From contig NZ_JAJAPX010000001.1 of NCBI RefSeq assembly GCF_020523965.1, forward strand, positions 992,001 through 1,056,000: a stretch of 64,000 nucleotides of DNA, in the 5' to 3' direction. Position numbers and translations under genes: made by a program. Under the pieces are notes generated by a model that saw nothing but the letters and a program-made list of their open reading frames with translations, did no database searches and was not told the origin of the DNA. Of the stretch, positions 39,036 through 61,828 are shown piece by piece (positions within the stretch are counted from its first letter, which is position 1; every line of letters starts with the position of its first letter). Origin of the DNA: Neotamlana sargassicola. Its GTDB lineage: Bacteria > Bacteroidota > Bacteroidia > Flavobacteriales > Flavobacteriaceae.

Positions 39036-39166
39036 CACTAAATTATTTCGATTTTTTAAAAAAACTGCATTTTACCGAAAAAAAATAACCTTATATCGAT
39101 ATTTTGTTAGGTAATACCATTTTTTTTAACTAATATTGTGATGAATTTTATTGTTTTATAAAAAAT

Positions 39167-39174: not shown

Positions 39175-39323
39175 AAAATATTCTTCCCTCAGCTCATTTT
39201 CAACTAATAGTTTGCAGTTTTTTTAGGTTAAAAAAGGTAATTATTTATTGCCAAAAGCTACTTATTAATGTAGACGATATAAAATTTTGAAGTTCTATTT
39301 TGATATCCCAAATCTATCAAAAA

Positions 39324-42300: not shown

Positions 42301-45300
42301 GGACTATAACTTGGACAGGAGGAATACCTGGGGCTACAGGAACAGCAATTGATAGTAATCCTAAAAATAATACAGCTTATAATATTTATAATCCATCTTC
42401 AACAGCTTCAAATCCTGTTTTTGCAGGTAGTATTGTTACAAATGGTTACAAATTTGTTTCAGATAATGATGGAGATTTATATGAGGCTAAAAATCCTAAT
42501 CTAGAAGGAACTCAAGATGGTAGTTTCTATAACTATGAAATTAATTTGCCAGATAACATTACTTCGGTAACGGTAACAGGGACAATAGAATTAAATGGTG
42601 ATGAAGGTCCTTATGGTTATTCTGCCGAAGCAATGGATGTTGACTATTCTGAAGCGTATTTTTCGGCTAATTGTGATTTAGATTCGGATAGCGATAGTTA
42701 TCCTAACCATTTAGACCTCGACAGCGACAACGACGGTATTCCAGATAATATAGAAGCTCAACCTACGGTAGGTTATGTATTACCCACCTATGGTTACGAT
42801 TTAGATGGAGTAGATAACAATTACACCGGCGGTTTATTATTAGAAGACACCGACAACGATGGCACGCCCGATTACATAGATTTAGACAGTGATAACGATG
42901 GTACGCCCGATATAGAAGAAAACGGTATGGCTAACGCGGTAAGCGGAACCGATACCGATGGTGATGGTTTAGATGATGCTTTCGAGACCAATGGGGTAAA
43001 CGATTCAAGTTTAGATGTAAACGAGTCGATAGAAGATCCAACAGATTTAAGCATACTACCCGATGCCGATGGCGATGTACTTACCACCGGCGATGTAGAT
43101 TACCGCGACGAATTAACGGTACTTTCAGAGGTAGCGACTATCGATTTTGATGGTGTAGACGATTATTTAGATGGCACACCATTTATAACCAATTGGGACA
43201 ATGGTACCATAATGAGTTGGATAAAAATAGAGCACGATAATGATGGTAACCTACCAAATATGTACAGTATAGCAGGGCAAGAAAGTATGCGATTATACAT
43301 TACTAACGGTCGCACACCAGCGTTTTATGTAATAACCCAAGACCAGGTAACCTCATCGAGTAACTATCCATCATCAAATATAAGTGTACAGCCCGATCCA
43401 TTATTAGGCATCAGCTTAAAGAATGATATGTGGTATCATGTTGCAGGCGTTTTTAATTCTTCAGAAGAAACGGTAAAACTATATTTAAACGGCGAATTAG
43501 TTGGCACCACCTCAAGTGGGTATTTAAACTCCGAATTAATCACACAAAATTATGATGGTACACCACATGTTTACTCCACCCGTGAGTTTACAATAGGCCG
43601 TTACCCAACCAATACAAGTGCCTCAGGATTTGGACATTTTAGAGGTAATATAGACGAGGTACGCGTGTTCGACACCGCCTTAACGGCAGAGCAAATTCAA
43701 CAAATGGTTTACCAAGAGATTGAAAATAATGGGGGAGTAATTCAAGGTAGTATAATTCCAAAAGACGTAGAAGATCATAGCTTAGGAAGTAAAGTATCAT
43801 GGTTAAATTTACAAGGTTACTACCCAATGACCAATATCATTAGTGGCACAACCAGCGATTATTCAAGTACAGGTAATAATTTAACCCTACATAATATAAC
43901 CACGGTACAAGAACAAACCGCGCCTATGCCTTACGAAACAACAGCAGCAGGAGATTGGACTAGTACATCAACATGGCTACATGGCACTGTATGGGATATT
44001 ACAGATGTAACAGATTTAAAAGACTGGAGTATCGTTCATATAAAAGATGATATAGAAATAACCGGCTCACATAGCAGTTTAGGATTATTAATCGATTCAG
44101 GTAAGACCTTAACGGTACATGGAGACCATGAGATAAATAACAGTTGGTATTTTGAGTTAAATGGCGATTTAGATTTAGAAGATGATTCACAATTAGTACA
44201 AGGCATTCGCAGCGATTTGGTAACCTCTTCAACGGGCAAGGTGTTACGTCGTCAAGAAGGGACATCCAATGCCTTTAGGTATAATTATTGGAGTTCTCCG
44301 GTAGGGGCTTTAGGCACCACGCCATTAAGCGATAATAATGCAACAAGTAATAATGCTAATAATAGTGCTTTTAACTTAAACATGTTAAAAGATGCAAGTG
44401 GTAATAATTGGACGTTTGTATCTGGATATACCGGAAGTAATAGTATAAGTACGTATTGGTTGTATACCTACAAAAACGGATTAAAGTATTGGGATTGGGC
44501 GCAAATAGGTCCGTCGTCTAATATAGGTACAGGAGTAGGTTATACACAAAAAGGAACAGGTGTATCAGGAGCGACCCAGCAATATATATTTTCAGGTAAG
44601 CCTAATAACGGTACAATAAAAATAGCTGTAAGCGATAGAGGCGGTTCAGGATCCGTGCCAGATGTTTCAAAGACAGAATATTTAGTAGGTAACCCTTATG
44701 CATCAGCCATAGATATTCACCAATTTATAGAGGATAATCAAGGCGTAATCGATGGCACAGTAAGTGTTTGGCAACAATGGGCAGGAAACTCCCATTATTT
44801 AAGTGAATATGAAGGCGGATATGCTCAAATAAACAAATTAGGAAGTATACGAGCGTATCAATTTGTAGGTATATCAGGCGCGAACAATGGTTCGCAAGAC
44901 GGCACGATAGTACCAACTAGGTACATGCCCGTTGGTCAAGGATTTATGGTAGAAGTAATAGCCGATGGAGAGGTTGAGTTTAATAATGGTCAACGCGTGT
45001 TTATAAAAGAGTCTGATGCCGATGGGAGCGAATATAATGGTTCTGTGTTTTCAAAAAGTAGTGATAGTAAAACGGCACAGGCATCAACAGATGGAATGCA
45101 AAAGTTACGTCTAGCTTTAACATCAGTATCTGGACCCAAAACCAATAGAGAGTTGTTGTTAGGATTTAGCGATTATACAAGCGACGATTATGATTATGGA
45201 TACGATGCGAAGTGTACAGCGACCAACAAGAACGATTTATTGTTAGCATTAAATGGTCAGGGTATGACCATGCAAGCCTATGGAGTAATAAGTGCAGAGA

Positions 45301-45785
45301 AGGAGATTCCGTTGCAGTTTAATTCATCGGGCAACAATAGCTTTAAGATCCAGTTAAGCGAACAAATCAATATACCAGCAGATCAGGCAATATATTTACG
45401 CGATAGTACCACCGATGTGTATTTCGATTTAAGCCAAGGCGAAGCATATAGTTTTACTAGTGCACAAGGGAAGTTTAACGAACGTTTTGCGATAGTATTT
45501 CAGAGTAAAGCAGAGACCTTATCAGTAAACGAATCTCAGAGAGAAGCTAATTTTATGTATTACCAAAATAGCACAAACACGTTTTATGTAAAGAAGTTAA
45601 ACGCCCAAGTAAAGAATTTAGCAGTAATCAATATGCGCGGACAACGCGTTATAGAGCAAGAAAATGTTGAGCAATCACGGTTAGAAAATGGTATCGTGCT
45701 GAGTAATATATCAACAGGAGCCTACGTGATTTGTTTACGCACCGATGCTAATGAAGTACTCACTAAAAAAATAGTTGTGAAATGA
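39324..45785 (+). CDS. Giant T9SS-secreted surface protein A (thrombospondin-3 repeats, LamG, type A tail), 2153 aa
   Basis: Start set at ATG 39324, which opens directly into a signal peptide (MTQKLLFCTFIACLMFNGLV); a TTG 24 bases earlier adds only non-family residues. After a ~250-residue head, the protein carries many Ca-binding thrombospondin type 3 repeats (DxDNDGxxD), at about residues 278, 490, 574, 782, 873 and 1118-1230. Globular beta domains lie between them. From ~1124 to the end it is a module shared with protein C: LamG-like domain (~1268-1465), a segment [12 protein letters not shown], a beta-rich part ending [15 protein letters not shown] (~1650), a region [20 protein letters not shown] (~1940), and a type A T9SS tail (last ~85, [17 protein letters not shown]). 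It is probably a cell-surface adhesin or glycan-binding protein; no catalytic motif was seen. Confidence 0.92.
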   Translation: MTQKLLFCTFIACLMFNGLVCQTNAPSIQTGVDFRWSDTQNDRRDPATIQSIVVNNLVYDTYNIPSSYELTQLGVDGHAVNSIKNNGTNIETTSASASWNDSALSAYQDLNLNHYFISNGNGDNICDDFSAASTTTNAQKQTLTYEPGITASSSSILAITERSANNCYYVELFGTLSGSTVVQSLGKTFVNQTTTEWGFGGTGAGSGDMGTPGSVNPPSTGSDYWLSDRVTENRGTIGIALFYLDDIAPIGSTIANVVLTGATSDHGDGKVFILTINDNDEDGYSDIDDLDDDNDGITDVNEGLSCGSNYLNWDGASLGSPLTQTIFNPSTGNFVDVTFEVLVDDTSHPIGYTTNTSPATNLGDVGGINTGDKIRISTSEPISLTIMSSNRITGASGVDGSYDQDEVLYTFNDSYAFTDPDDIFRTVSQTATELRIIPRRADDGVTATPENRFNWSIVSTTDLFELEVLSGNPRMSIKIRVDDCSYLDSDNDGIPDHFDTDSDNDGCPDALEGSAPNSQINHDDLNEYYGITGGQDSNGVPSAASGGQGVGSSIDNTVQTAECNTCDSSHAEYYDTDGDGIGNACDLDDDNDGILDSVEDDCSNSSIFETTGNNTSSAFETLPYGRVISATDLILGSGINFYHQSTSFRFTGAGESNLSNAITNNDYIEQSFTTASTFTTNTMNLDRLRLRHGGTSGSLAYGYHIGVLISDDDFATSTILNADFYYEDDYSVGEDVNIATNIQFSLAVNTTYKIRYYFYAGNETTEYYIDDITAFELACNNDNDGDGVVNSQDTDSDNDGCPDAIEANSSSYLFNDLNFDYSINTSSNPIDSDSASATYGAPNGSNNGIGISQDFTQQSDECDSCNSNSSLFIDTDNDGIGNNCDLDDDNDGILDTVECGNSANLGLTVSGTIPNFILTDDSSSTTSNTVTRNGDINGNGTIVNNEIVRLTWAPVEGSSGFTFSTTQTFDSAISGVKIKPNNSVTHVSDVIIWTITWTGGIPGATGTAIDSNPKNNTAYNIYNPSSTASNPVFAGSIVTNGYKFVSDNDGDLYEAKNPNLEGTQDGSFYNYEINLPDNITSVTVTGTIELNGDEGPYGYSAEAMDVDYSEAYFSANCDLDSDSDSYPNHLDLDSDNDGIPDNIEAQPTVGYVLPTYGYDLDGVDNNYTGGLLLEDTDNDGTPDYIDLDSDNDGTPDIEENGMANAVSGTDTDGDGLDDAFETNGVNDSSLDVNESIEDPTDLSILPDADGDVLTTGDVDYRDELTVLSEVATIDFDGVDDYLDGTPFITNWDNGTIMSWIKIEHDNDGNLPNMYSIAGQESMRLYITNGRTPAFYVITQDQVTSSSNYPSSNISVQPDPLLGISLKNDMWYHVAGVFNSSEETVKLYLNGELVGTTSSGYLNSELITQNYDGTPHVYSTREFTIGRYPTNTSASGFGHFRGNIDEVRVFDTALTAEQIQQMVYQEIENNGGVIQGSIIPKDVEDHSLGSKVSWLNLQGYYPMTNIISGTTSDYSSTGNNLTLHNITTVQEQTAPMPYETTAAGDWTSTSTWLHGTVWDITDVTDLKDWSIVHIKDDIEITGSHSSLGLLIDSGKTLTVHGDHEINNSWYFELNGDLDLEDDSQLVQGIRSDLVTSSTGKVLRRQEGTSNAFRYNYWSSPVGALGTTPLSDNNATSNNANNSAFNLNMLKDASGNNWTFVSGYTGSNSISTYWLYTYKNGLKYWDWAQIGPSSNIGTGVGYTQKGTGVSGATQQYIFSGKPNNGTIKIAVSDRGGSGSVPDVSKTEYLVGNPYASAIDIHQFIEDNQGVIDGTVSVWQQWAGNSHYLSEYEGGYAQINKLGSIRAYQFVGISGANNGSQDGTIVPTRYMPVGQGFMVEVIADGEVEFNNGQRVFIKESDADGSEYNGSVFSKSSDSKTAQASTDGMQKLRLALTSVSGPKTNRELLLGFSDYTSDDYDYGYDAKCTATNKNDLLLALNGQGMTMQAYGVISAEKEIPLQFNSSGNNSFKIQLSEQINIPADQAIYLRDSTTDVYFDLSQGEAYSFTSAQGKFNERFAIVFQSKAETLSVNESQREANFMYYQNSTNTFYVKKLNAQVKNLAVINMRGQRVIEQENVEQSRLENGIVLSNISTGAYVICLRTDANEVLTKKIVVK
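42690..45785 (+). repeat. C-terminal module copy 1 (near-identical to 52893-55988)
   Basis: About 3.09 kb of coding sequence that matches 52893-55988 base for base with scattered substitutions. The offset stays 10203 throughout, so there is no net insertion or deletion. I count about two dozen residue differences over ~1030. Identity begins near the codons for [15 protein letters not shown] and ends at the stop codon; the 3' flanks differ at once. Confidence 0.95.
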
Positions 45786-49300: not shown

Positions 49301-50950
49301 GAACTAAAAGGTACTTTAGATTTAGAAGATGATTGCCAGCTAATACAAACTTCAACTAGCGATTTGGTAACTTCGGCATTAGGTAAAATTCGTCGTCGCC
49401 AAGAAGGAACTTCAAGTGCATTCTGGTATAACTATTGGGGTTCGCCTGTTGGTACATTAAGTGCTACTAGTTTAACCGATAATAATGCTTCAACAAACAA
49501 CGATAACAATACCCCATTTAACTTAAATATGTTAAAAGATGGTGACGGTAACCCAATGACTTTTACCTCAAGTTATACAGCAAACGGTAATATTAGTACC
49601 TATTGGTTATACACTTATAAAAATGGGTTAACTTATTGGGATTGGAAGAAAATTGGGACATCGTCAAATGTTTCGGCAGGTGTTGGTTATACCCAAAAAG
49701 GAACAGGAATTTCCGAAGATTTTCAAGAATATATTTTTGAAGGTAAACCAAACAACGGTACCGTAGTTTTAAACGTAACAGATAAAGGTGGTTTTGGTTC
49801 TACTTCTGGATCAACAAAAACCGAATATTTAGTAGCGAACCCTTACCCTTCTGCTATCGATATACATGAATTTATCGATGATAACTATGGTGTAATTGCT
49901 GGTTACGTGCAGTTGTGGCAACAATGGGATGGAGCCTCACATAACCTTAACGAGTACGATGGAGGGTATGCTACAGTAACTAAATTAGGTTCTATTAAAG
50001 CTTATCAATTCCAAGGCATTTTAGGTGCAATTTTTGGCGCTGTTCGTGGTACATTAACTCCAACAAGATATGTGCCAGTTGGTCAAGGGTTTATGGTAGA
50101 GGTTGTTTCAGATGGAGAAATAAAGTTTAAAAATAGTCAGCGTGTTTTTATAAAAGAATCGGATAGTAATGGATCATATAATTCTGGATCTATATTTCTT
50201 AAGTCTAATTCAAAAGGCGACGATAAAGACAGTACAAGTAAAAACGAAAGTGATGATGATTTTATGAAAATGAGAATTGAAATTACTTCTATTGCTGGCC
50301 CTGAAACTAATAGAGAATTACTTTTAGGATTTAGTAATACTACTACAGATGCATTCGATTATGGGTACGAGGCAGAGTGCGTAGAGGTTACCAATAACGA
50401 TTTATTGTTAGACTTAGAAGGTGCCGATATGACCATTCAGGCTTACGGAGAAATAACAAGCGACAAAGTTGTAGGTTTAAACTTTAGGTCTTCGGGCAAT
50501 AATAGTTTTGAAATAACGGCAACCGACTTCGAAAGTTTTAACGATGATCAGGAAGTGTATTTACGCGATAATTTAACCAATACTTATTTCGATTTAACCG
50601 GAAACGAAGCTTATAGTTTTACCTCAGAGCAAGGTATTTTTAACGACCGTTTCGAAATAGTATTCCAGAGTAAGAGTCAAACCTTAAGTTCAGAGCAAGC
50701 TCAGTTTGATGCTAATTATATGTATTTCCAAAATACAACTAATATGTTTTATGTTAAAAAGTTTAGTGGCTCTGCTAAAAACTTAGCCGTAATAAACATG
50801 AAAGGTCAACGTATTATGGAACTGGAAAATGTAGATAATTATACGTTAGAAAATGGAATAGATTTAAGTAACATAGCAACAGGAGCCTATGTAGTTTGCT
50901 TACAAACAAGTGCGAATGAGGTGCTTACCAAAAAAATAATAAAAAAATAA
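46346..50950 (+). CDS. Giant T9SS-secreted surface protein B (IgGFc-binding-like head, Ig, DUF11, LamG, type A tail)
   Basis: 1534 residues. Signal peptide ending NAVNAQ. The head (~30-460) resembles the IgGFc_binding domain (YLSTPVTTAFTVNVYRGT; GRAALGQSFKWGGAP; EDDTEVTISGYNP). Next come an Ig-like domain (~470-540, YQWFEDGVLIPGATSATY), a DUF11 repeat (~543-650, INKTVDKNKVVEGETAIFTI), a LamG-like domain (~665-840, [18 protein letters not shown]), and the same C-terminal layout as A and [46 protein letters not shown], type A tail ending TKKIIKK. The C-terminal half is clearly homologous to A and C but much more diverged than they are from each other. It has no thrombospondin repeats. Probable surface adhesin. 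Confidence 0.92.
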   Translation: MRPNKFNFILFLAFICFNAVNAQLSDLHYLPPLKQDSNNVAIQQQTIYLSTPVTTAFTVNVYRGTSTTAITSFSLSKGTPVTYNLANGDNNITLVTNANTGVVLNNSGLRFEAPSGEKFYVNYRGRSGSQAASITSKGRAALGQSFKWGGAPIEADHSSMSATLGIMATEDDTEVTISGYNPNCEFRLGTDVDGITDNTITITLQQGESYVLEAAKDGTTANIDGWIGASIEADKDIAISNGMLNFGVNPSSASRDAGADQPVPEDKLGKDYVFVRGYGGSSNEYIIIIGTQDNTNVYVNGNTTPFANIDEGEYAEIPSTYFSGTTVGHNMLVTTSKDTYAYQVVSGDSGIHTVSLNFVAPVNCLLPDAMNHIHNITDISGITASGGVFIIASTYTPDANITVKDGTGPIALPASSTVAGTTDWKTFYISGLSGDVSVESSGPIAVGFLGFNGARGIAGYFSGFDTVPEVTLQVSGGGCLPGADVEVVGESFDSYQWFEDGVLIPGATSATYSPTTSADYYVRVVKGGCTYDSQSLSAYYCDPDVLINKTVDKNKVVEGETAIFTIEVQNLGANPVTNLTVVDNIPSGLTLISSNPSVGSWSGSTWTIGTLNSGVKETIELEVQADQINTHSVTLTNTAYNNQTETDANVTTDSPSADITIYNYISEASIDFDGVDDYLSRPGFLEGLDQITIMAWVKTDSGNNSNMVVAGEDEGVKLWLKNGRKPSITINTKYALSETSVSCSCSLNYDEWHHIAATYSRYTGLIKLYVDGELEKSTLKLLSLTEIESSSNANGSFEIGRLSSNASDKEYFKGDIDEVRVFNVALADSQIQKMVYQEIEDVSGNVYGKAIPKPITTSDVSETISWSNLIAYYPMTDIDIASDVVNDFSESGNDLNLYNISTIVEQTAPMPYESASDGAWEIESTWLHGTVWDIEDVASNKDWSIVKIASNVTTTNSHNNLGLIIEDDVSLTVSDENEINNSWYLELKGTLDLEDDCQLIQTSTSDLVTSALGKIRRRQEGTSSAFWYNYWGSPVGTLSATSLTDNNASTNNDNNTPFNLNMLKDGDGNPMTFTSSYTANGNISTYWLYTYKNGLTYWDWKKIGTSSNVSAGVGYTQKGTGISEDFQEYIFEGKPNNGTVVLNVTDKGGFGSTSGSTKTEYLVANPYPSAIDIHEFIDDNYGVIAGYVQLWQQWDGASHNLNEYDGGYATVTKLGSIKAYQFQGILGAIFGAVRGTLTPTRYVPVGQGFMVEVVSDGEIKFKNSQRVFIKESDSNGSYNSGSIFLKSNSKGDDKDSTSKNESDDDFMKMRIEITSIAGPETNRELLLGFSNTTTDAFDYGYEAECVEVTNNDLLLDLEGADMTIQAYGEITSDKVVGLNFRSSGNNSFEITATDFESFNDDQEVYLRDNLTNTYFDLTGNEAYSFTSEQGIFNDRFEIVFQSKSQTLSSEQAQFDANYMYFQNTTNMFYVKKFSGSAKNLAVINMKGQRIMELENVDNYTLENGIDLSNIATGAYVVCLQTSANEVLTKKIIKK

Positions 50951-51101: not shown

Positions 51102-54100
51102 ATGATTAAAAAGTTAACATTATTCTCAAGTTTGCTATTGCTTTTAAATTTGCCATTTTCTTTGGGAGCGCAATGCGATAGCTGCGATGTTATTGGTCCA
51201 AATAGTGGCAATGTTACATTTTACAGTAATACAACAACTTGCTTTACATCTAATGCAACTTTGGGCGATGTTATATTTCAAAATAATAGTAAGGTTTGTA
51301 TAGCTCCTGGAGTAACTGTAACTATTCAAAATAATTTAAACACAACAAATGGCCATGATATTTCAATTGAAGTACAAGGTTCATTGCATTTTAACCAAAG
51401 CCCAACCTTTAATGCTAATTTTTCATTAAACGTTCAATCTTCTGGGTATATAAAATCCGGAAATTCGGGCAATGGTACTTTTACATTTAATGGTTCTGGA
51501 GTAAATATTTATAAAAATTCTGGAATATCAGAGTTTGGAGTTTTACAGTTTAATAATGCTGCGGCTACTAATAGTATTTATAATTACGGAACATTTAATG
51601 TAACTAATATGAATGTGCAAGGAGCCACAAATTTCATAAATCAAGAAACTTTAAATATTGCATCTAATTTTAGTTTTAGCGCCAATTCTGTATTAACTAA
51701 TTGCGGAACAATTACTGCACAATCTGGGTTTAACTTAAATGGGGGATCTGTAATTAACACCAATACATTTAACGTAGTTGGTGGGGATATAGATTTTGGT
51801 AGTTCAAACTCATCTATGTACAATTATTCAACCATGTATATTGGCGGAAAAATTAACATGGCAGGTACGAGTAATATTTTGTATAACGAAGGTTTGCTTA
51901 CAATTGATGGGAGTATACAAGGAACCATTGGTAAAATTCAAGGGCCTTCAGATAACACAAAACTAGGTTATATAAAATGGGGAACTAAACCAAATGTTGG
52001 ATCTGGTGCCGAAATAGGGCCTAATTTAGACATAGAATATATTGGTGGTTCAACCGGTGCTCAAAAAGCAAATGTTTATTCAACTTTTAATGGTACAGAA
52101 TTAGCAAATGTATCAAAAGCTTGTGAGGTTTATGGAAATTGTTCGGCATCCATGGATACCGTTGGAGGAACGTGTGCAGACCCCGATGCTAATATCGATG
52201 CTTGTTCTAGTGGAACAATAATAGGTACACCAACAGAAAACGATTCTGATGGAGATGGTATAATTAATTCTTGCGATTTAGACGATGATAATGACGGTAT
52301 TCTAGATGTTCTAGAAATGAATACGCCAACCGGATACATTGATTTAGGGCAAACTTTTAGCGATAATACTTCAACATCTGGAGTAATAAATAACGTTTAC
52401 CCTTTTGCATCAAATTTTGCAAATTTTAATTATAGCTTAGAAGGAAGCGCTATATGGGGTTCTGGAGTTAGTTCGGCTACTACAGCTGGAATAACGGGAT
52501 ATTATATGAATTTACAAATTAGAAATTCTGATTTTGTAAATGGAGATTATGGAGTTTATGTTTTTGAGTTTGATGAGCCAGTTTACAATTTAAACTTTAA
52601 AATGGGAGGTTTCGATTTTGAAGATAGAGCAGATTTTGAAGCTACCCTAAATGGAATAAATTCTCCGGTTAATATTACAGATATTAATTTAGGAACAAAT
52701 GGTACATTGTCTAATCAAACGGTTATAGGTTCTTCTACAACTGCCGGTAATGCCCCAGCAAACAGTGTTGAAGTTGCAATAAATGGTCCGATGGATAAAC
52801 TAGTTATTCGAACGGCAAAAAACAATGGAAATGCAAACAATGTGACTTTACAGATTTATGAGTTATCTTATTCTACTGAAATCCAAACAGATTTAGATAG
52901 TTATCCCAATCATTTAGACCTCGACAGCGACAACGACGGTATTCCAGATAATATAGAAGCTCAACCTACGGTAGGATATGTATTACCCACCTATGGTTAC
53001 GATTTAGATGGAGTAGATAACAATTACACCGGCGGTTTAGGATTAGAAGACACTGACAACGATGGCACGCCCGATTACATAGATTTAGACAGTGATAACG
53101 ATGGTACGCCCGATATAGAAGAAAACGGTATGGCTAACGCCGTAAGCGGAACCGATACCGATGGTGATGGTTTAGACGATGCTTTCGAGACCAATGGGGT
53201 AAACGATGTGAGTTTAGATGTAAACGAAGACATCGAAGATCCTACCGATTTAAGCATATTACCCGATGCCGATGGCGATGTACTTACCACCGGCGATGTA
53301 GATTACCGCGACGAATTAACGGTACTTTCTGAGGTAGCGACTATCGATTTTGATGGTGTAGACGATTATTTAGATGGCACACCATTTATAACCAATTGGG
53401 ACAATGGTACCATAATGAGTTGGATAAAAATAGAGCACGATAATGATGGTAACCTACCAAATATGTACAGTATAGCAGGGCAAGAAAGTATGCGATTGTA
53501 CATTACTAACGGTCGCACACCAGCGTTTTATGTAATAACCCAAGACCAAGTAACCTCATCGAGTAACTATCCCTCATCAAATATAAGTGTACAACCCGAT
53601 CCATTATTAGGCATCAGCTTAAAGAATGATATGTGGTATCATGTTGCAGGCGTTTTTAATTCTTCGGAAGAAACGGTAAAAATATATTTAAACGGCGAAT
53701 TAGTCGGAACCACCTCAAGTGGGTATTTAAACTCCGAATTAATCACACAAAATTATGATGGTACACCACACATTTACTCCACCCGTGAGTTTACAATAGG
53801 TCGTTACCCAACCAATACAAGTGCCTCAGGATTTGGACATTTTAGAGGTAATATAGACGAGGTACGCGTGTTCGACACCGCCTTAACGGCAGAGCAAATT
53901 CAACAAATGGTTTACCAAGAGATTGAAAATAATGGGGGAGTAATTCAAGGTAGTATAATTCCAAAAGACGTAGAAGACCATAGCTTAGGAAGTAAAGTAT
54001 CATGGTTAAATTTACAAGGTTACTACCCAATGACCAATATCATTAGTGGCACAACTAGCGATTATTCAAGTACAGGTAATAATTTAACCCTACATAATAT

Positions 54101-55988
54101 AACCACGGTACAAGAACAAACCGCGCCTATGCCTTACGAAACAGCAGCAGCAGGAGATTGGACTAGTACATCAACATGGTTACATGGCACTGTATGGGAT
54201 ATTACAGAAGTAGCAGATTTAAAAGACTGGAGTATCGTTCATATAAAAGATGATACCGAAATAACCGGCTCACATAACAGTTTAGGATTATTAATCGATT
54301 CAGGTAAGACCTTAACGGTACATGGAGACCATGAGATAAATAACAGTTGGTATTTTGAGTTAAATGGTACGTTAGATTTAGAAGATGATTCACAATTAGT
54401 ACAAGGCATTCGTAGCGACTTGGTAACCTCTTCAACGGGCAAGGTGTTACGTCGTCAAGAAGGGACATCCAATGCCTTTAGGTATAATTATTGGAGTTCT
54501 CCAGTAGGGGCTTTAGGCACCACGCCATTAAGCGATAATAATACAACAAGTAATAATGCTAATAATAGTGCTTTTAACTTAAACATGTTAAAAGATGCAA
54601 GCGGTAATAATTGGACGTTTGTATCAGGATATACAGGAAATAATAGTATAAGCACGTATTGGTTGTATACCTACAAAAATGGATTAAAGTATTGGGATTG
54701 GGCGCAAATAGGTCCGTCGTCTAATATAGGGACAGGAGTAGGCTATACACAAAAAGGAACAGGAGTATCAGGAGCGACCCAGCAATATATATTTGAAGGT
54801 AAGCCTAATAACGGTACAATAAAAATAGCAGTAAACGATAGAGGCGGTTCAGGATCCGTGCCAGATGTTTCAAAGACCGAATATTTAGTAGGTAACCCTT
54901 ATGCATCAGCCATAGATATTCACCAATTTATAGAGGATAATCAAGGTGTAATCGATGGCACAGTAAGTGTTTGGCAACAATGGGCAGGAAACTCCCATTA
55001 TTTAAGTGAATATGAAGGCGGATATGCTCAAATAAACAAATTAGGAAGTATACGAGCGTATCAATTTGTAGGTATATCAGGCGCGAACAATGGTTCGCAA
55101 GACGGCACGATAGTACCAACTAGGTACATGCCCGTTGGTCAAGGATTTATGGTAGAAGTAATAGCCGATGGAGAGGTTGAGTTTAATAATGGTCAACGCG
55201 TGTTTATAAAAGAGTCTGATGCCGATGGCAGCGAATATAACGGTTCGGTGTTTTCAAAAAGTAGTGATAGTAAAACGGCACAGGCATCAGCAGGTGGAAT
55301 GCAAAAGTTACGCTTAAGTTTAACATCAGTATCTGGACCCAAAACCAATAGAGAGTTGTTGTTAGGATTTAGCGATTATACCAGCGACGATTATGATTAT
55401 GGATACGATGCGAAGTGCACAGCGACCAACAAGAACGATTTATTGCTAGCATTAAATGGTCAGGGTATGACCATGCAAGCCTATGGAGTAATAAGTGCAG
55501 AGAAGGAGATTCCGTTGCAGTTTAATTCGTCGGGCAACAATAGTTTTAAGATTCAGTTAAGCGAACAAATTAATATACCATCAGATCAGGCAATATATTT
55601 ACGCGATAGTACCACCGATGTGTATTTTGATTTAAGCCAAGGCGAAGCATATAGTTTTACTAGTGAACAAGGGAAATTTAACGAACGTTTTGCGATAGTA
55701 TTCCAGAGTAAAGCAGAGACCTTATCAGTAAATGAATCTCAGGCAGAAGCTAATTTTATGTATTACCAAAATAGCACAAACACGTTTTATGTAAAGAAGT
55801 TAAACGCTCAAGTAAAGAATTTAGCAGTAATCAATATGCGGGGACAACGCGTTATAGAGCAAGAAAATGTTGAGCAATCACGGTTAGAAAATGGTATAGT
55901 GTTAAGTAATATATCAACAGGAGCCTACGTCGTTTGTTTACGCACCGATGCTAATGAAGTACTCACTAAAAAAATTATTGTGAAATAA
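51102..55988 (+). CDS. Giant T9SS-secreted surface protein C (beta-helix-like head, thrombospondin-3 repeats, LamG, type A tail)
   Basis: 1628 residues. Signal peptide ending LPFSLGAQ. The head (~25-340) is an Asn/Ser/Gly-rich run of short strands ([59 protein letters not shown]) that looks like a parallel beta helix. One thrombospondin-3 pair ([20 protein letters not shown], ~385) and a ~190-residue beta domain follow. From ~598 ([15 protein letters not shown]) to the end it is almost the same as protein A from ~1124: more thrombospondin repeats, LamG at ~742, and the type A T9SS tail. Only the head differs, so it may bind a different target with the same anchor and stalk. Confidence 0.92.
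52893..55988 (+). repeat. C-terminal module copy 2 (near-identical to 42690-45785)
   Basis: Second copy of the ~3.09 kb module, 10203 bases downstream of the first, in the same reading frame and orientation. Differences are scattered, with long identical runs (for example around 53340-53500). Such identity between two genes separated by the diverged gene B implies recent conversion or duplication. Confidence 0.95.
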
Positions 55989-56013
55989 GAAATGCAATAA
56001 AAATAGCTTTTAT

Positions 56014-56046
56014 AAAAAGATCAAAATAATTTATTTTGATCTTTTT
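56014..56046 (+). terminator. Terminator after giant gene C
   Basis: Near-perfect 16-bp palindrome AAAAAGATCAAAATAA / TTATTTTGATCTTTTT with one central base, running into T residues, 25 bases after the stop codon. The rest of the gap to 56281 is AT-rich, with nothing else recognisable. Confidence 0.75.
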
Positions 56047-56280
56047 TTATATAATTTATTGGGATTGGAAAGCTTTACGTTATGGATTTTAAAATAACCA
56101 AATTCGATGTTTAATTGGTGCAAACAGATAAATAGATAAAATAAAATGTCAAGCGATTATAAGTTTTATAGCCAGAAAACTGTAACTATTATAGAATAAA
56201 GGATGGGTTATTTAATTTAAATGTTATTTTTATCTCAAGTTTTTAATGTCCCAAGTTAAAATTAACCTATTCAACCAAAA

Positions 56281-57165
56281 TTGTTGGATTTGAAAAAGGA
56301 CTATAATAACATTAAGAAATGTATTGGGATAATATTATTAATCTTATCAATTGCTGCTAATGCTCAATTAAATAATGATATAGGTAGTGTTGAAGCCTAT
56401 CGTATATTAAATGAGCGTTCTAATAAAACAACTTCAAGCGCATCAAGTCCTGTTATTATAAAAACAACCAATTCAGGGTTTAAAAAAATTAGGATAGAAT
56501 TTAATGGAGTTGAAGGTTCGTTTGCAAGTCGTGAGTTGTTATTAGGTTTCAGTGAAAAAACTTCCGATGGTTTTGATTATGGATATGACTCAGAAAGCAC
56601 TTTACATGCCGATGACTTAGGTTTAAATTTAAACGGAAAGAATTATGGTATACAAGCTTACTCCCAATTAACTTCAAAAAAAGTTGTAAAATTAAACCAT
56701 CAAGCGTCTGGAAATCATCGATTTGTAATTAATATTACTGAATTGGAGAATATAGAGGAAGATCAGGATATTTTTTTAATAGATAAAATGAACAATGTGT
56801 ATTTTGATCTATCAAAAGGAGATGGATATGAATTTTATTCTATTAAAGGAATTTTTTCTGATCGTTTTGAAATTGTTTTTCAAGAGGATTCACAAACATT
56901 ACATGCTAATAACGTTAGCTTTACTACAAAAAACATGTATTTACAAAGAAATATAAATACCTTTTTTGCAAAGCAATTAATTAACGGAGCAAGCAAATTA
57001 ACTGTCGTAAATTTACAAGGTCAAAAAATATTGGAGCTATTTAATGTTACTCAGCAAGATTTAGAATCGGGCATATCTTTTAATAATTTTTTAAGCAATA
57101 CTTACGTGGTATTATTACAAACTAAAAGCCACGGCATTCTTACCAAAAAAGTAGTTGTGAAATAA
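56281..57165 (+). CDS. Short T9SS cargo made of the giants' C-terminal module only (paralogue 1)
   Basis: 294 residues. Signal peptide ends SIAANAQ. After ~35 low-complexity residues the protein consists of the segment seen at the C-termini of A, B and [33 protein letters not shown], a beta-rich stretch, then a type A T9SS tail (KLTVVNLQGQKILEL; TKKVVVK). No head, LamG or thrombospondin repeats. No ATG is available; TTG codons at 56281 or 56290 (giving MKKDYNNIKK) are the possible starts. It was probably exported and attached like the giants; its function is unknown. It might be a minimal cargo, a decoy or a recombination donor. Confidence 0.8.
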   Translation: MLDLKKDYNNIKKCIGIILLILSIAANAQLNNDIGSVEAYRILNERSNKTTSSASSPVIIKTTNSGFKKIRIEFNGVEGSFASRELLLGFSEKTSDGFDYGYDSESTLHADDLGLNLNGKNYGIQAYSQLTSKKVVKLNHQASGNHRFVINITELENIEEDQDIFLIDKMNNVYFDLSKGDGYEFYSIKGIFSDRFEIVFQEDSQTLHANNVSFTTKNMYLQRNINTFFAKQLINGASKLTVVNLQGQKILELFNVTQQDLESGISFNNFLSNTYVVLLQTKSHGILTKKVVVK

Positions 57166-57357
57166 GCAGAGTTTTTCTATAATTATTGTGCTAGTATAAT
57201 CAGGAAACAAAATTTATGTAATATTTTTATATTTTATTATTAAAGAAAAATCTTTCAAAAATATGATGAAACGCATATTTTTAAAGATAAAATGCATTAA
57301 AAACAGCTAAAACGACATTTTGTTTCTATTTTCGTTAATTTCTTATGTAATGTTTTT

Positions 57358-57365
57358 TAACTTTG
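57358..57365 (+). promoter_or_regulatory. -7 box for the 57435 gene
   Basis: TAACTTTG, an exact TAnnTTTG, 70 bases before the ATG at 57435. This suggests the second short paralogue has its own promoter. The remainder of the 269-base gap is AT-rich with nothing else seen. Confidence 0.45.
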
Positions 57366-57434
57366 TAAGAGCAAAAGATAGAAGTTGTAATTACACAAAA
57401 TCATCTTTTTTTTACCCCAAAAAACCTACATATT

Positions 57435-58307
57435 ATGAAAAGTTTCTTCTACAAAAATTATAAAATAATTATTCCTGTTTTTTTAATTCAATTATTTTTA
57501 GTTAGCAAAAATTTAAATGCACAATCAAAAAGTGCATTAGGTATTGTAGATGCAGCTAATCAGGAAAACACGGAGCTACCTGTTACCAATATTGTTAGAA
57601 AAACTACAAATTCAGGGTTTAAAAAAATTAGAATTGAATTTAGAGGGTTAGAAGGTGCTTTAATAAGAAGAGAATTGCTTTTAGGATTTAGTGAAGCAAC
57701 TTCAGATGATTACGATTATGGATATGATGCTCCAGTTGTTACAACTTATCAAGACGATTTAAATTTAGATTTAAATGGAACGAATATGAGCATACAAGCA
57801 TATTGTGAACTATCTAGCGATAAATTAGTAAAGTTTAACCATTATTCTTCAGGTGATAATAAATTTTCAATTAAAATAATTGAATTAGAAAATATAGGAG
57901 AAGAACAAGAAATATTTATTAAAGATGGGCAAACAGGAGCACTTTTCGATTTGTCAAAAGGAGAAGCATACGAGTTTATCTCATCTAAAGGTACTTTTAA
58001 AGAGCGTTTTGAAATGACTTTTCAAGAAGAAACATCTACTTTAAGCACCAATGATGTAGCTTACAATGCTAAAAACATGTATTTTCAAAACCCAACTAAT
58101 ACGTTTTATGCTAAACAATTAAAAACTATAGTTAAAAAATTAGTTTTGGTAAACTTACAAGGTCAAAAAGTATTAGAGCTAAAAAATGTATCTCAAGATA
58201 CTTTAGAAGCTGGAATTTCATTAAACAATATGTCGCCTAATACATATGCAATGATTCTTCAAACAGATAATCAAGAGATTTTAACCAAGAAGTTTGTAAT
58301 AAATTAG
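57435..58307 (+). CDS. Short T9SS cargo made of the giants' C-terminal module only (paralogue 2)
   Basis: 290 residues with ATG start and a signal peptide ending NLNAQ. It is closely related to the preceding gene (both have the block KTTNSGFKKIRIEF) and to the ends of the giants ([42 protein letters not shown]). It has a type A T9SS tail (KLVLVNLQGQKVLEL; TKKFVIN). It differs from paralogue 1 throughout, so the pair is older than the A/C duplication. It is probably secreted and surface-linked; no catalytic residues are evident. Confidence 0.85.
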   Translation: MKSFFYKNYKIIIPVFLIQLFLVSKNLNAQSKSALGIVDAANQENTELPVTNIVRKTTNSGFKKIRIEFRGLEGALIRRELLLGFSEATSDDYDYGYDAPVVTTYQDDLNLDLNGTNMSIQAYCELSSDKLVKFNHYSSGDNKFSIKIIELENIGEEQEIFIKDGQTGALFDLSKGEAYEFISSKGTFKERFEMTFQEETSTLSTNDVAYNAKNMYFQNPTNTFYAKQLKTIVKKLVLVNLQGQKVLELKNVSQDTLEAGISLNNMSPNTYAMILQTDNQEILTKKFVIN

Positions 58308-58362: not shown

Positions 58363-58429
58363 TTAATGCTTATAATTTCAGTTTAAATGCTTAAATTCGC
58401 GCATCGAAACGAAAAATGTATAAGTGAGC

Positions 58430-61400
58430 ATGAAATTTGCTGAATATAAAGGACTTGACCTGCCAAAAGTAACTGAAGAAATTCTTAACTATTGGCAAGA
58501 AAATAACATATTTGAAAAAAGCGTAACCACCAGAGAAGGCAATGAAACATTTGTGTTTTTTGAAGGGCCACCATCGGCAAACGGGTTACCAGGTGTGCAC
58601 CATGTATTGGCGCGTGCTATAAAAGATATTTTTCCAAGATATAAAACCATGAAAGGTTACCAAGTAAAGCGTAAAGCAGGTTGGGACACGCATGGTTTAC
58701 CTATTGAGCTTGGTGTAGAAAAAGAGTTAGGTATTACTAAAGAAGATATTGGAAAAACTATTTCTGTCGAAGATTATAATGCAGCATGCCGTAAAGCTGT
58801 AATGCGCTACACCGATGTTTGGAACGATCTTACTCAAAAAATGGGGTATTGGGTAGATATGGACGATCCGTACATTACCTACGAACCTAAATACATGGAG
58901 TCTGTTTGGTGGTTATTAAAACAGATTTACAATAAAAGTTTATTATACAAAGGTTATACTATACAACCATATTCGCCAAAAGCGGGAACCGGTTTAAGTT
59001 CTCATGAGTTAAACCAACCAGGAACCTATCAAGATGTAACCGATACTACAATTGTAGCGCAGTTTAAAGCTTTAGCTGAAACATTGCCAGACTTTTTACA
59101 AAATGAAGGTGATATACATTTCTTAGCTTGGACCACCACACCTTGGACCTTGCCAAGTAACACCGCATTAACTGTTGGGCCAAAAATAGATTATGTTTTA
59201 GTCGAAACTTACAATCAATACACTTTTGAGCCAATAAATGTAGTATTGGCTAAAAAATTGGTGAACTATCAGTTTTCAGGGAAGTTTAACCGTGTTGAAG
59301 ATAAATCAGAATTACTAGCCTATAAATCTGGTGATAAAAAAATTCCGTATTACGTAGTAAAGGAATTTGTAGGTAAAGATTTAGTTGGTATAAAATATGA
59401 GCAACTTATGCCGTATGTTTTACCAAACGATAATCCAGAAAATGCATTTAGAGTTATAGCTGGAGATTTTGTAACTACCGAAGATGGTACAGGTATTGTA
59501 CACACCGCACCAACCTTTGGTGCCGATGATGCTTTGGTTGCAAAACAAGCAACACCAGAAGTACCGCCAATGTTAGTTAAAGACGAAAACGGAAACTTAG
59601 TACCGCTTGTAAATTTACAAGGTAAATTCCGTCCAGAGTTAGGCGATTTAGCTGATAAATACGTTAAAAACGAATATTATAACGATGGCGAAGCTCCAGA
59701 GCGTTCGGTTGATGTCGAGATTGCCATTACATTAAAAGAAGAAAACAAAGCCTTTAAGGTTGAAAAATATAAACACAGCTACCCAAATTGTTGGCGTACC
59801 GATAAACCCATTCTTTATTATCCTTTAGATTCTTGGTTTATAAAAGTTACCGACATAAAGGATAGAATGTACGAGCTTAACGAAACTATAAACTGGAAAC
59901 CAAAAGCAACAGGAACGGGTCGTTTTGGTAATTGGCTAGCCAATGCTAACGATTGGAACTTGTCGCGCTCGCGTTACTGGGGAATTCCGTTACCAATTTG
60001 GAGAACCGAAGATGGTAAGGAAGAAATCTGTATTGGTTCGGTTGAAGAACTAAAAAGTGAAATGGCAAAAGCGGTTTCAGCAGGTGTTCTTGAAAAAGAT
60101 ATTTTTGAAGATTTTGAAGTTGGAAACAACTCCGAAGAAAATTATGCAAAACTAGATTTACATAAAAATATAGTTGATGGCATTATTTTAGTGTCACCAA
60201 CGGGCCAAAAAATGTTCCGCGAAAGCGATTTAATCGATGTATGGTTCGATTCTGGTTCAATGCCTTACGCACAATGGCATTACCCATTTGAAAATAAGGA
60301 ATTAGTCGATGGAGGCGTATCGTACCCAGCCGATTTTATAGCCGAAGGTGTCGATCAAACTCGTGGATGGTTTTACACACTTCACGCTATTGGAACAATG
60401 GTTTTCGATTCTGTAGCCTACAAAAATGTAGTGTCTAACGGATTAGTTTTAGATAAAAACGGACAAAAAATGTCCAAGCGTTTAGGTAACGCTGTTGATC
60501 CGTTTGAAACTTTAGGTAATTACGGTGCCGATGCTACACGTTGGTACATGATTAGTAACGCCAATCCTTGGGATAATTTAAAATTTGATATTGATGGTGT
60601 AGAGGAAGTAAAACGTAAATTCTTCGGAACGCTTTATAATACCTATTCGTTCTTCTCGTTATATACAAATTTAGATGGTTTTAGTTACGCTGAAGCCGAT
60701 ATAGCTCTGGAAGATCGTCCGGAGTTAGATCGTTGGATTTTATCAGAACTACATACCTTAATTCAAAAAGTAGACGAATATTATGCCGACTACGAACCAA
60801 CTAAAGCGGCTAGAGCAATTTCAGACTTTACGCAAGATAATTTAAGTAACTGGTTTGTACGTTTAAGTAGAAGACGTTTCTGGAAAGGTGATTACCAGCA
60901 AGATAAAATTTCGGCCTACCAAACACTTTATATGTGTATGGAAACCATTGCGAAACTTGGGGCTCCAATTGCACCTTTCTTTATGGACAAATTGTATTTA
61001 GATTTAAATGCAGTAACCAAAAAAGAAAGTTTCGAGAGTGTACACTTAGCTAATTTCCCAGTTTACAACGAAGCTTTTGTAGATAAAAGTTTAGAGCGTA
61101 AAATGGAAAATGCTCAAATAATATCATCGTTAGTATTGTCGTTACGAGCAAAAGAAAAAATAAAAGTACGCCAACCACTGCAAAAAATTATGATTCCTAT
61201 TGATAACGAACAACAAAAGGAAGAAATATTAGCAGTGTCAGATTTAATTAAACACGAAGTAAACGTAAAGGAAATAGAGCTTTTAGATGACGCTTCAGAT
61301 ATTTTAGTAAAACAGATAAAACCAAACTTTAAAGTACTTGGGCCACGTTTTGGTAAAGATATGAAGGCAGTAGCGGCTAAAGTAATTAACTTTTCGGCAG

Positions 61401-61828
61401 AAGATATTAACAAAATTGAGCAAAATGGCGAAATAGAAGTTGATATTAATGGAAAAAACATTATTTTGGAACGCGGTGACGTAGAAATTACATCGCAAGA
61501 TATAGAAGGTTGGTTGGTTGCAAATGAAGGTGCTTTAACTGTTGCTCTAGATGTTACAATTACAGACGAATTACGTAAAGAAGGTATAGCAAGAGAATTA
61601 GTTAACAGAATTCAAAATTTACGTAAAGACTCAGGGTTTGAGGTAACAGATAAAATAAATGTAGAGCTTCAAAAAGACGATAACATTGTAAATGCCATTA
61701 ATTCTAATATCGATTACATAAAAACCGAAACATTAACCGAACAATTAGAAATTAAAGACGACATTAAGAATGGTATAGAAATTGCTTTTGATGATGTAAA
61801 TACCAAATTGTTTATTCAAAAACATTAA
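58430..61828 (+). CDS. ileS: Isoleucyl-tRNA synthetase, type II (eukaryote-like)
   Basis: Charges tRNA-Ile. 1132 residues from ATG 58430; a GTG two codons earlier is less likely. The HIGH-type motif is in EGPPSANGLPGVHHVLARAI, and the second ATP motif is KMSKR in KNGQKMSKRLGN. The CP1 editing domain (AWTTTPWTLPSNTALTV) is present. The GLPGVHH form and KMSKR, with the length above 1100 and no C-terminal zinc finger of the E. coli kind, mark it as type II. That type is known for low mupirocin sensitivity. The dksA-like gene follows after four bases. Confidence 0.98.
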   Translation: MKFAEYKGLDLPKVTEEILNYWQENNIFEKSVTTREGNETFVFFEGPPSANGLPGVHHVLARAIKDIFPRYKTMKGYQVKRKAGWDTHGLPIELGVEKELGITKEDIGKTISVEDYNAACRKAVMRYTDVWNDLTQKMGYWVDMDDPYITYEPKYMESVWWLLKQIYNKSLLYKGYTIQPYSPKAGTGLSSHELNQPGTYQDVTDTTIVAQFKALAETLPDFLQNEGDIHFLAWTTTPWTLPSNTALTVGPKIDYVLVETYNQYTFEPINVVLAKKLVNYQFSGKFNRVEDKSELLAYKSGDKKIPYYVVKEFVGKDLVGIKYEQLMPYVLPNDNPENAFRVIAGDFVTTEDGTGIVHTAPTFGADDALVAKQATPEVPPMLVKDENGNLVPLVNLQGKFRPELGDLADKYVKNEYYNDGEAPERSVDVEIAITLKEENKAFKVEKYKHSYPNCWRTDKPILYYPLDSWFIKVTDIKDRMYELNETINWKPKATGTGRFGNWLANANDWNLSRSRYWGIPLPIWRTEDGKEEICIGSVEELKSEMAKAVSAGVLEKDIFEDFEVGNNSEENYAKLDLHKNIVDGIILVSPTGQKMFRESDLIDVWFDSGSMPYAQWHYPFENKELVDGGVSYPADFIAEGVDQTRGWFYTLHAIGTMVFDSVAYKNVVSNGLVLDKNGQKMSKRLGNAVDPFETLGNYGADATRWYMISNANPWDNLKFDIDGVEEVKRKFFGTLYNTYSFFSLYTNLDGFSYAEADIALEDRPELDRWILSELHTLIQKVDEYYADYEPTKAARAISDFTQDNLSNWFVRLSRRRFWKGDYQQDKISAYQTLYMCMETIAKLGAPIAPFFMDKLYLDLNAVTKKESFESVHLANFPVYNEAFVDKSLERKMENAQIISSLVLSLRAKEKIKVRQPLQKIMIPIDNEQQKEEILAVSDLIKHEVNVKEIELLDDASDILVKQIKPNFKVLGPRFGKDMKAVAAKVINFSAEDINKIEQNGEIEVDINGKNIILERGDVEITSQDIEGWLVANEGALTVALDVTITDELRKEGIARELVNRIQNLRKDSGFEVTDKINVELQKDDNIVNAINSNIDYIKTETLTEQLEIKDDIKNGIEIAFDDVNTKLFIQKH

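Follow-up and report, generated by a model that had tools for sequence, protein, structure and literature searches.

Small stand-alone genes beside giant module-bearing genes in Neotamlana sargassicola and its relatives: probably working proteins rather than debris

A 64 kb stretch of the genome of Neotamlana sargassicola, hereafter the window, holds three giant genes, A, B and C, followed on the same strand by two short genes, S1 and S2, which repeat the C-terminal module of the giants. The question raised by this locus is what a protein made of little more than the last domain and sorting tail of a giant could do on its own. Adhesins of the type IX secretion system (T9SS) such as RemA take part in gliding and surface colonisation. 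As judged from their sequences, the small genes beside giants are old, have been kept by selection in many relatives and are probably working proteins and not debris. That the conserved pre-tail domain also occurs by itself, in selected genes beside giants, points to a working part rather than a spacer, and the short form is a protein small and expressible enough for probing what this domain binds.

The short genes and the shared C-terminal module

Both open reading frames (ORFs) are present on the + strand, S1 (56290..57165) coding for a T9SS-type protein of 291 residues from a TTG start and S2 (57435..58307) for one of 290 residues from an ATG. In each, a hydrophobic stretch is followed by a linker of about 25-30 residues and then by the module. 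The signal peptides (S1, 56290..56367, ending in ANAQ; S2, 57435..57524, ending in LNAQ) were called by eye and hydropathy. The module consists of a beta-sandwich of about 140 residues, termed here the pre-tail domain (S1, 56455..56880, placed by alignment to S2; S2, 57594..58022, placed from the structural model), and of a T9SS tail (S1, 56923..57162; S2, 58065..58304). In BLASTP alignments with the ends of A, B and C, identity is 46-48% for S2 (227-234 residues aligned) and 41-46% for S1 (229-254 residues aligned), all with E-values of 4e-57 or lower; the two shorts are 52-54% identical to each other. The corresponding modules of the giants, also located by BLASTP, lie at 45081..45782 (A), 50246..50947 (B) and 55284..55985 (C), all on the + strand. 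The initial annotation, which described both genes as a signal peptide plus the C-terminal module of A, B and C without any head domain, is thus confirmed by the ORFs and by the 41-48% identity, and its estimate of 250 residues for the module shrinks to about 230 by alignment. It had also started S1 at TTG 56281, one of three in-frame TTGs near the 5' end. From TTG 56290 the protein begins M-K-K-D-Y and the Tamlana nanhaiensis copy begins M-R-K-Y-Y; because the alignment with that copy fits, 56290 is probably the true start.

The only significant sequence matches of S2 in the PDB were the C-terminal 230 or so residues of RemA and RemZ (E 3e-10 and 9e-10), and S1 matches the same region of RemZ. 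According to PMC10994853, RemZ was caught in the SprA pore and both proteins are type A cargo. The structure prediction that had been proposed for the module gave, for mature S2 (30 sequences, mean predicted local distance difference test, pLDDT, 83.6), a beta-sandwich, a low-confidence stretch at residues 171-180 and an immunoglobulin-like (Ig-like) tail resembling those of RemZ and RemA. Residues 180-260 of the model reach Z 8.9-9.4 against the tails of RemZ, RemA and NucA, the best of these being RemZ (8gl8_D, Z 9.4, 1.9 Å over 73 residues). A DUF3244 protein (4g5a_A) tops the list for this tail with Z 9.8 but a root-mean-square deviation of 8.7, many Ig-like domains score 7-8, and the Foldseek E-value is only 3e-3. 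Since the Ig-like tail fold is common, the assignment to the type A family rests on sequence plus fold. With the tail model TIGR04183 (cut-off 23 bits), S2 scores over the threshold (24.5) and S1 under it (18.4), and the S1 tail is accordingly called type A-like. Lys1110 of RemZ is described as almost invariant in type A tails (PMC10994853), and the residue aligned with it is lysine in both S1 and S2 (Lys286 in S2, next to Lys285, a residue kept in all groups described below).

The pre-tail domain modelled alone reaches pLDDT 93.6 and a predicted template modelling score of 0.88. No convincing PDB match was found for it (best Foldseek E 0.29, Z 4.9), which is not proof of a new fold. No Pfam model covered it in S1 or S2; the Pfam scan gave no match at all for S1 and, for S2, only the tail, below its cut-off. 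A function as T9SS surface endonuclease (NF052644, AS87_RS02955) was rejected, as similarity to that family is confined to the tail: neither S1 nor S2 matches its model at E ≤ 1 (full-length cut-off 260 bits), a further stand-alone copy in the same genome (locus L067) scores 14.8 bits over tail residues 174-239, and comparison with a below-cut-off NF052644 relative used as proxy (L207) aligns 51 tail columns at 2% probability. The genome encodes T9SS machinery, with SprA at 2734 bits, PorU at 1406 and three PorV-family matches, the best at 417.

S1 and S2 are flanked by giant C and an ileS-like ORF. Giant C is separated from S1 by an A+T-rich hairpin followed by a T run (56010..56050, + strand; -13.3 kcal/mol for 55996-56050), which is terminator-like and was missed by a consensus terminator scan that demands G-C pairs. 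The giants carry LamG and other possible binding domains. Giants A (39300-45785) and C (51102-55988) share a tract of 1041 residues (1121-2161 in A, 588-1628 in C) at 97% identity, which points to recent exchange or duplication of this part.

Recurrence, descent and selection

The family was surveyed in 299 genomes, among them the same-genus relatives T. sedimentorum, T. laminarinivorans and T. nanhaiensis (G001-G003). S2 finds matches at E ≤ 1e-6 in at least 159 of them, and a profile of six distant shorts finds matches at E ≤ 1e-20 in at least 128, giants included in both cases. The loci from L061 on, together with the window, contain 209 module ORFs, of which 51 are closed and no longer than 360 residues, duplicate places included. 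Among the stand-alone forms two groups are prominent, whose counts, like all counts of shorts here, are lower bounds. Group I comprises at least seven (S1, S2, three from other Tamlana, one each from Flaviramulus basaltis and G200), and group II at least 34 in 33 genomes and 27 genus codes. Profile comparison finds the groups homologous across the whole module (99.8% probability). An N-terminal signal peptide is seen by hydropathy in all seven group I shorts and in 33 of 34 in group II, the exception (L152, 344 residues) having a start that is probably called too far upstream. Group II leaves out L067, L074-L076, L120, L127 and L178, and the counts of shorts also exclude small ORFs that abut a contig edge (L063 12435, L078, L079). 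The L074 ORF (301 residues) was rejected as a short, since no signal peptide is visible in it and it resembles the C-terminal piece of a longer gene.

Whether short forms sit beside long forms in other genomes was a check proposed in the initial annotation, and the arrangement is indeed recurrent. A module-bearing giant lies upstream on the same strand within 1.5 kb in 27 of the 28 group II shorts that could be evaluated, with gaps of 70-911 bp (median 167 bp) in these 27 pairs. The remaining 6 of 34 were not evaluable (undetermined bases upstream in L073, L154, L162, L164 and L166; a contig edge in L170). About half of the start of one giant (L201) likewise reads N.

In two trees, one made with FastTree (190 modules, 6 group I shorts) and one with IQ-TREE (94 modules, 7 group I shorts), the group I shorts form one clade (support 100) and the 34 group II shorts another (97 and 98), separate from the modules of the giants. 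A 51-row tree with 7 group I and 18 group II shorts repeats both clades (96 and 97), and a single clade for those 25 shorts is rejected by the approximately unbiased (AU) test (p-AU 3e-101), the AU test and the clade supports alike concerning groups named after the tree was seen. Because of this rejection, stand-alone forms are taken to have arisen at least twice. The trees leave out the duplicate loci L082-L085, L089 and L094, IQ-TREE also omits seven contig-edge rows, and the L062 short is absent from FastTree by a cutting rule and present in IQ-TREE. In IQ-TREE two shorts from Algibacter group with long forms from the same genus or locus (Shimodaira-Hasegawa-like approximate likelihood-ratio test 92-93), whereas FastTree leaves them unplaced. 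In genome G194 (L191:4782-6710) a tandem pair of shorts, 280 and 272 residues long, comes after a giant, the layout of C, S1 and S2 in another module subfamily; its placement is unsure, one of these shorts being unplaced in FastTree and the second in no tree.

Shorts and giants show no sign of exchanging sequence. All 27 paired group II shorts are closer to the short of another genome than to their own giant, which is the best match among giants for only 3 of the 27. Distances among shorts track those among giants (Mantel r 0.67; 0 of 5000 permutations), a pattern that common descent by itself would produce as well.

Within Tamlana retention is uneven. The window has both types, T. sedimentorum an S2-type gene and, in the place of S1, a broken copy with stops and matches in three frames, T. 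laminarinivorans an open S2-type gene and T. nanhaiensis an open S1-type gene. The site upstream of ileS, noted at L120, L127 and window 58424-61828, holds module-bearing giants in many Flavobacteriaceae loci, and in two Algibacter genomes it also has shorts of separate derivation.

The ratio of nonsynonymous to synonymous substitution rates (dN/dS) between S2 and its T. sedimentorum counterpart is 0.215 (dS 0.69), that of giant B and its counterpart 0.303 and that of ileS 0.049; among group I shorts the pairwise values are 0.13-0.32, with dS above 1 in 19 of 21 pairs. By these measures S2 is under purifying selection. S1 looks weakened.

The two parts of the module fare differently in the larger clade. 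For 27 pairs, mean identity among group II shorts is 0.523 in the pre-tail domain and 0.257 in the tail, against 0.461 and 0.435 for the giants of the same pairs, a difference in ratio of -0.45 (bootstrap 95% confidence interval -0.54 to -0.37). All 92 group I giants and 34 of 37 group II giants retain the glycine of a GxY motif in the tail; of the shorts, none of 7 in group I and 6 of 34 in group II do. Lysine stands at the position aligned with RemZ Lys1110 in all seven group I shorts and in 10 of 27 group II shorts, compared with 26 of the 27 giants paired with the latter, and the lysine just before it is kept in 23 of these 27 shorts. For the larger clade, these identities and residue counts thus speak for a pre-tail domain maintained by selection and a sorting tail that erodes. 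Loss of GxY was tried as a mark of stand-alone forms and rejected, as the motif is present in L067, L074, L075, L076, L120, L127, L178 and the second of the L191 copies, and absent from RemA and RemZ themselves. TIGR04183 matches 6 of 7 group I shorts at E ≤ 1 and 4 of the 6 group II shorts scanned out of 34 (best E 0.0094; one score shown, 13.6 bits), and five group II giants score 26.7-38.5 bits. A type C (ChiA) tail model matches 5 of the same 6 group II shorts at E ≤ 1, the type A model 4; in one shown in full, type C outscores type A but stays below its cut-off.

A direct repeat upstream of shorts and giants

The best-scoring site in the window for a LytTR-like direct repeat, two TGCNTTTYATC half-sites with a period of 21, lies 139-172 nt upstream of S2 (57263..57296, - strand, score 21.3), and the second best upstream of giant A (39066..39099, + strand, score 18.9). 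In 20 shuffled windows the score of the giant A site was reached in 3 and that of the S2 site in none. The underlying matrix was built from group II shorts only. Of these 34, 30 have the repeat (TGCATTTCATCGA/TGCATTTTATAGA, period 20-21) at about -98, and the 30 that score 18 or more belong to the set from which the matrix was made. At the same threshold and within 300 nt upstream, the matrix finds 26 of 76 group I giants and 11 of 283 other ORFs (p 9e-12, a value that flatters, as the giants are related, their relatedness is uncorrected and the controls are mechanical ORFs of at least 200 residues). It also finds 4 of 7 group I shorts. The sites are on the minus strand in group I shorts, and on the plus strand in group II shorts and giants with a site of 18 or more.

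A strict form of the pattern occurs at three places in the 3.6 Mb genome (none in the control), upstream of S2, of a third stand-alone copy and of a gene for an extracytoplasmic function (ECF) sigma factor, of which only the last is independent, the pattern having been written after the other two were seen. A still stricter pattern had no match. The genome has 11 matches to LytTR. The repeat lies about 100 bp upstream of the ECF sigma factor gene (L204:1501-2183; G000:C36:186931), and the ORF after that gene may, as a guess from position, encode its anti-sigma factor. The third copy (C32:273213, 251 residues; L067:7175-7930) also qualifies the earlier statement that there are two stand-alone copies: S1 and S2 are real, and the genome holds at least this further one. 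Its type, 251-253 residues long, is found in the window genome and two relatives (L075:6247-7002 and L076:6438-7199). In all three it is divergent from a sensor and response-regulator gene pair, identified with Pfam in the window genome as a histidine kinase and a LytTR regulator, and has the direct repeat at -67. Taken together, these sites suggest that a LytTR regulator may control shorts and giants, and the recurring repeat provides a testable regulatory link between them.

Other upstream signals were also noted. The element TAACTTTG (57358..57365, + strand), which precedes S2 by 77 nt, agrees with TAnnTTTG, the consensus of the flavobacterial -7 box (PMC9723704); no such match was found upstream of S1. 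A box of this kind precedes 4 of 7 group I shorts (mean of 1.7 in shuffles, 20 of 300 reaching the observed count) and is present in 7 of 27 group II gaps (mean of 3.9, 28 of 300 reaching it), an enrichment that is weak at best. A sigma-70 scan was uninformative, with 22 promoter-like sites against 16.5 (standard deviation 4.1) in shuffles, and the consensus scan found no terminator. Of 79 group I giants, 41 have a CCC[CT]?AAA leader within 50 nt; the corresponding counts are 4 of 7 for group I shorts, 18 of 34 for group II shorts and 13 of 235 for control ORFs. In group II shorts (L068-L073, L151-L177, L179) two further elements recur ahead of the start codon, a TATATTAG-like box at about 45 nt and a CCCCAAAT-like leader at about 4 nt; a similar CCCAAA precedes many group I giants.

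Possible roles of the short proteins and known systems

The explanation that we prefer, tentatively, is that the shorts are exported surface proteins acting through their beta-sandwich, most likely as accessory partners of the neighbouring giants. S2, and S1 at least formerly, would cross the inner membrane by its signal peptide and the outer membrane through the type IX system by its RemA/RemZ-like tail, and would then act through the domain of about 140 residues that it has in common with the giants. As an accessory subunit, made separately from the neighbouring giant adhesin but co-regulated with it, it might for instance pair with the giant's own copy of this domain or act where the giant is anchored or assembled. 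The suggestion of the initial annotation that the short proteins help assemble the giants is possible and comes close to this explanation.

Several points weigh against it. Pairing is optional from the giants' side: ten giants of the group II type (L180-L189) chosen as short-less have no short in the 0.36-1.6 kb downstream, and 58 of 75 loci rows carry ileS while a closed short is found in only 10 of those (7 distinct places, window excluded). The group II short L179 stands without a giant, and near the third Tamlana copy there is none either. The repeat is missing within 400 nt upstream of giants B and C and of S1, and only 3 of the 10 group II giant starts read (nine and L071) have a site of 18 or more. 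Given the loss of GxY and of the Lys1110 equivalent described above, and the one TIGR04183 score shown, which is below the cut-off, secretion of the group II shorts is doubtful and their fate may differ from that of S2. Finally, the erosion of the tail is not general, the group I tails being only slightly less conserved than the pre-tail domain (0.589 against 0.636 in shorts, with no significance test; 0.653 against 0.654 in the giants of seven group I pairs).

A free ligand-binding, lectin-like protein, on the surface or released, whose pre-tail domain binds a glycan or another surface with or without the giant, is rather unlikely. The beta-sandwich fold and the strong pre-tail conservation in group II shorts would suit it, as would the LamG and other possible binding domains of the giants and the description of RemA as a lectin-domain adhesin involved in gliding (PMC12618676); the structural matches are however so weak (best Z 4.9) that no ligand is suggested, and the pairing with giants is left unexplained. 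We also regard as unlikely a sensor or regulator in the manner of PorA of Porphyromonas gingivalis, in which a short at the surface would report a ligand or the secretion state to the regulatory system that controls the giants. PorA has the same layout and affects PorXY-SigP (PMC7712824); the third copy is divergent from a histidine kinase/LytTR pair, with the repeat at -67, and the other strict repeat site precedes an ECF sigma factor gene. Against this, S1 and S2 adjoin no regulator gene, their neighbours being giant C and the ileS-like ORF, and PorA homologues are reported only in Porphyromonas (same source).

Two other roles first imagined for the shorts, and the prospect that they are mere relics, receive less credence. 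A cap or competitor that occupies attachment or export sites by its tail is improbable: the tails of S1 and S2 are of the giants' type and group I shorts keep the tail almost as well as the rest, so that such competition is still conceivable in that group, but in group II the tail is the least conserved part and most shorts have lost residues that nearly all giants keep (GxY, 6 of 34 against 34 of 37; the Lys1110-like lysine, 10 of 27 against 26 of 27). Conservation of the group II beta-sandwich while the tail drifts argues both against tail-based competition and against a donor of sequence for recombination with the giants. To the latter we give almost no weight; the near-identity of A and C does indicate that exchange or duplication occurs at the locus, but S1 and S2 are only 41-48% identical to A, B and C, every paired group II short is nearer to another genome's short, and the shorts form clades of their own. 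Non-functional remnants of tandem duplication would fit S1 in part, in view of its TTG start, the absence of a TAnnTTTG match upstream and the broken T. sedimentorum counterpart. As an account of the shorts in general this is very improbable, with S2-type genes open in T. sedimentorum and T. laminarinivorans, an S1-type gene open in T. nanhaiensis, dN/dS of about 0.21 for S2 and 0.13-0.32 within group I (at the high dS noted), and one clade of 34 kept over 27 genus codes.

The accessory-partner explanation can be extended, more doubtfully, to a two-part adhesin common to the family, in which giants and a separate copy of their last domain were paired several times under a shared LytTR-type operator, the small part pairing with or tuning the giant through a beta-sandwich of unmatched fold and the larger clade having shed much of its sorting tail. 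Searches of the open-licence literature, with most subscription papers outside their scope, found no paper on a stand-alone RemA-type module.

Among known systems, YpdB of Escherichia coli, a LytTR regulator, recognises GGCATTTCAT as a direct repeat (PMC4847170), and the repeat described here is TGCATTTCATCGA-like with a period of 19-22. The same source gives LytTR sites as 9-11-nt repeats with 11-13-nt spacers and no common consensus, so that the match in letters may be coincidence. Fjoh_0547 is, like the shorts, a very small protein with a T9SS tail (112 residues), but too small for a pre-tail domain of about 140 residues plus tail, and it is reported outside sprA and porV mutants (PMC7712824). 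PorA (PGN_0123, 246 residues) combines a signal peptide, one beta-sandwich and a type A tail, as the shorts do; its domain is however reported as FimH-like, and the portion of PMC7712824 at hand mentions no neighbouring giant. PorA was absent among the structural matches listed for the pre-tail domain, and no direct comparison of the two was made. The C-terminal 230 or so residues of RemA and RemZ of Flavobacterium johnsoniae (PDB 8gl6 and 8gl8) are homologous to S2. These structures resolve well only the RemZ tail (PMC10994853), and no solved example of the pre-tail domain was found. With their chains of 1436 and 1114 residues RemA and RemZ have a large head region that S1 and S2 lack, and in the tail they share with S2 a common fold at Z 9.2-9.4.

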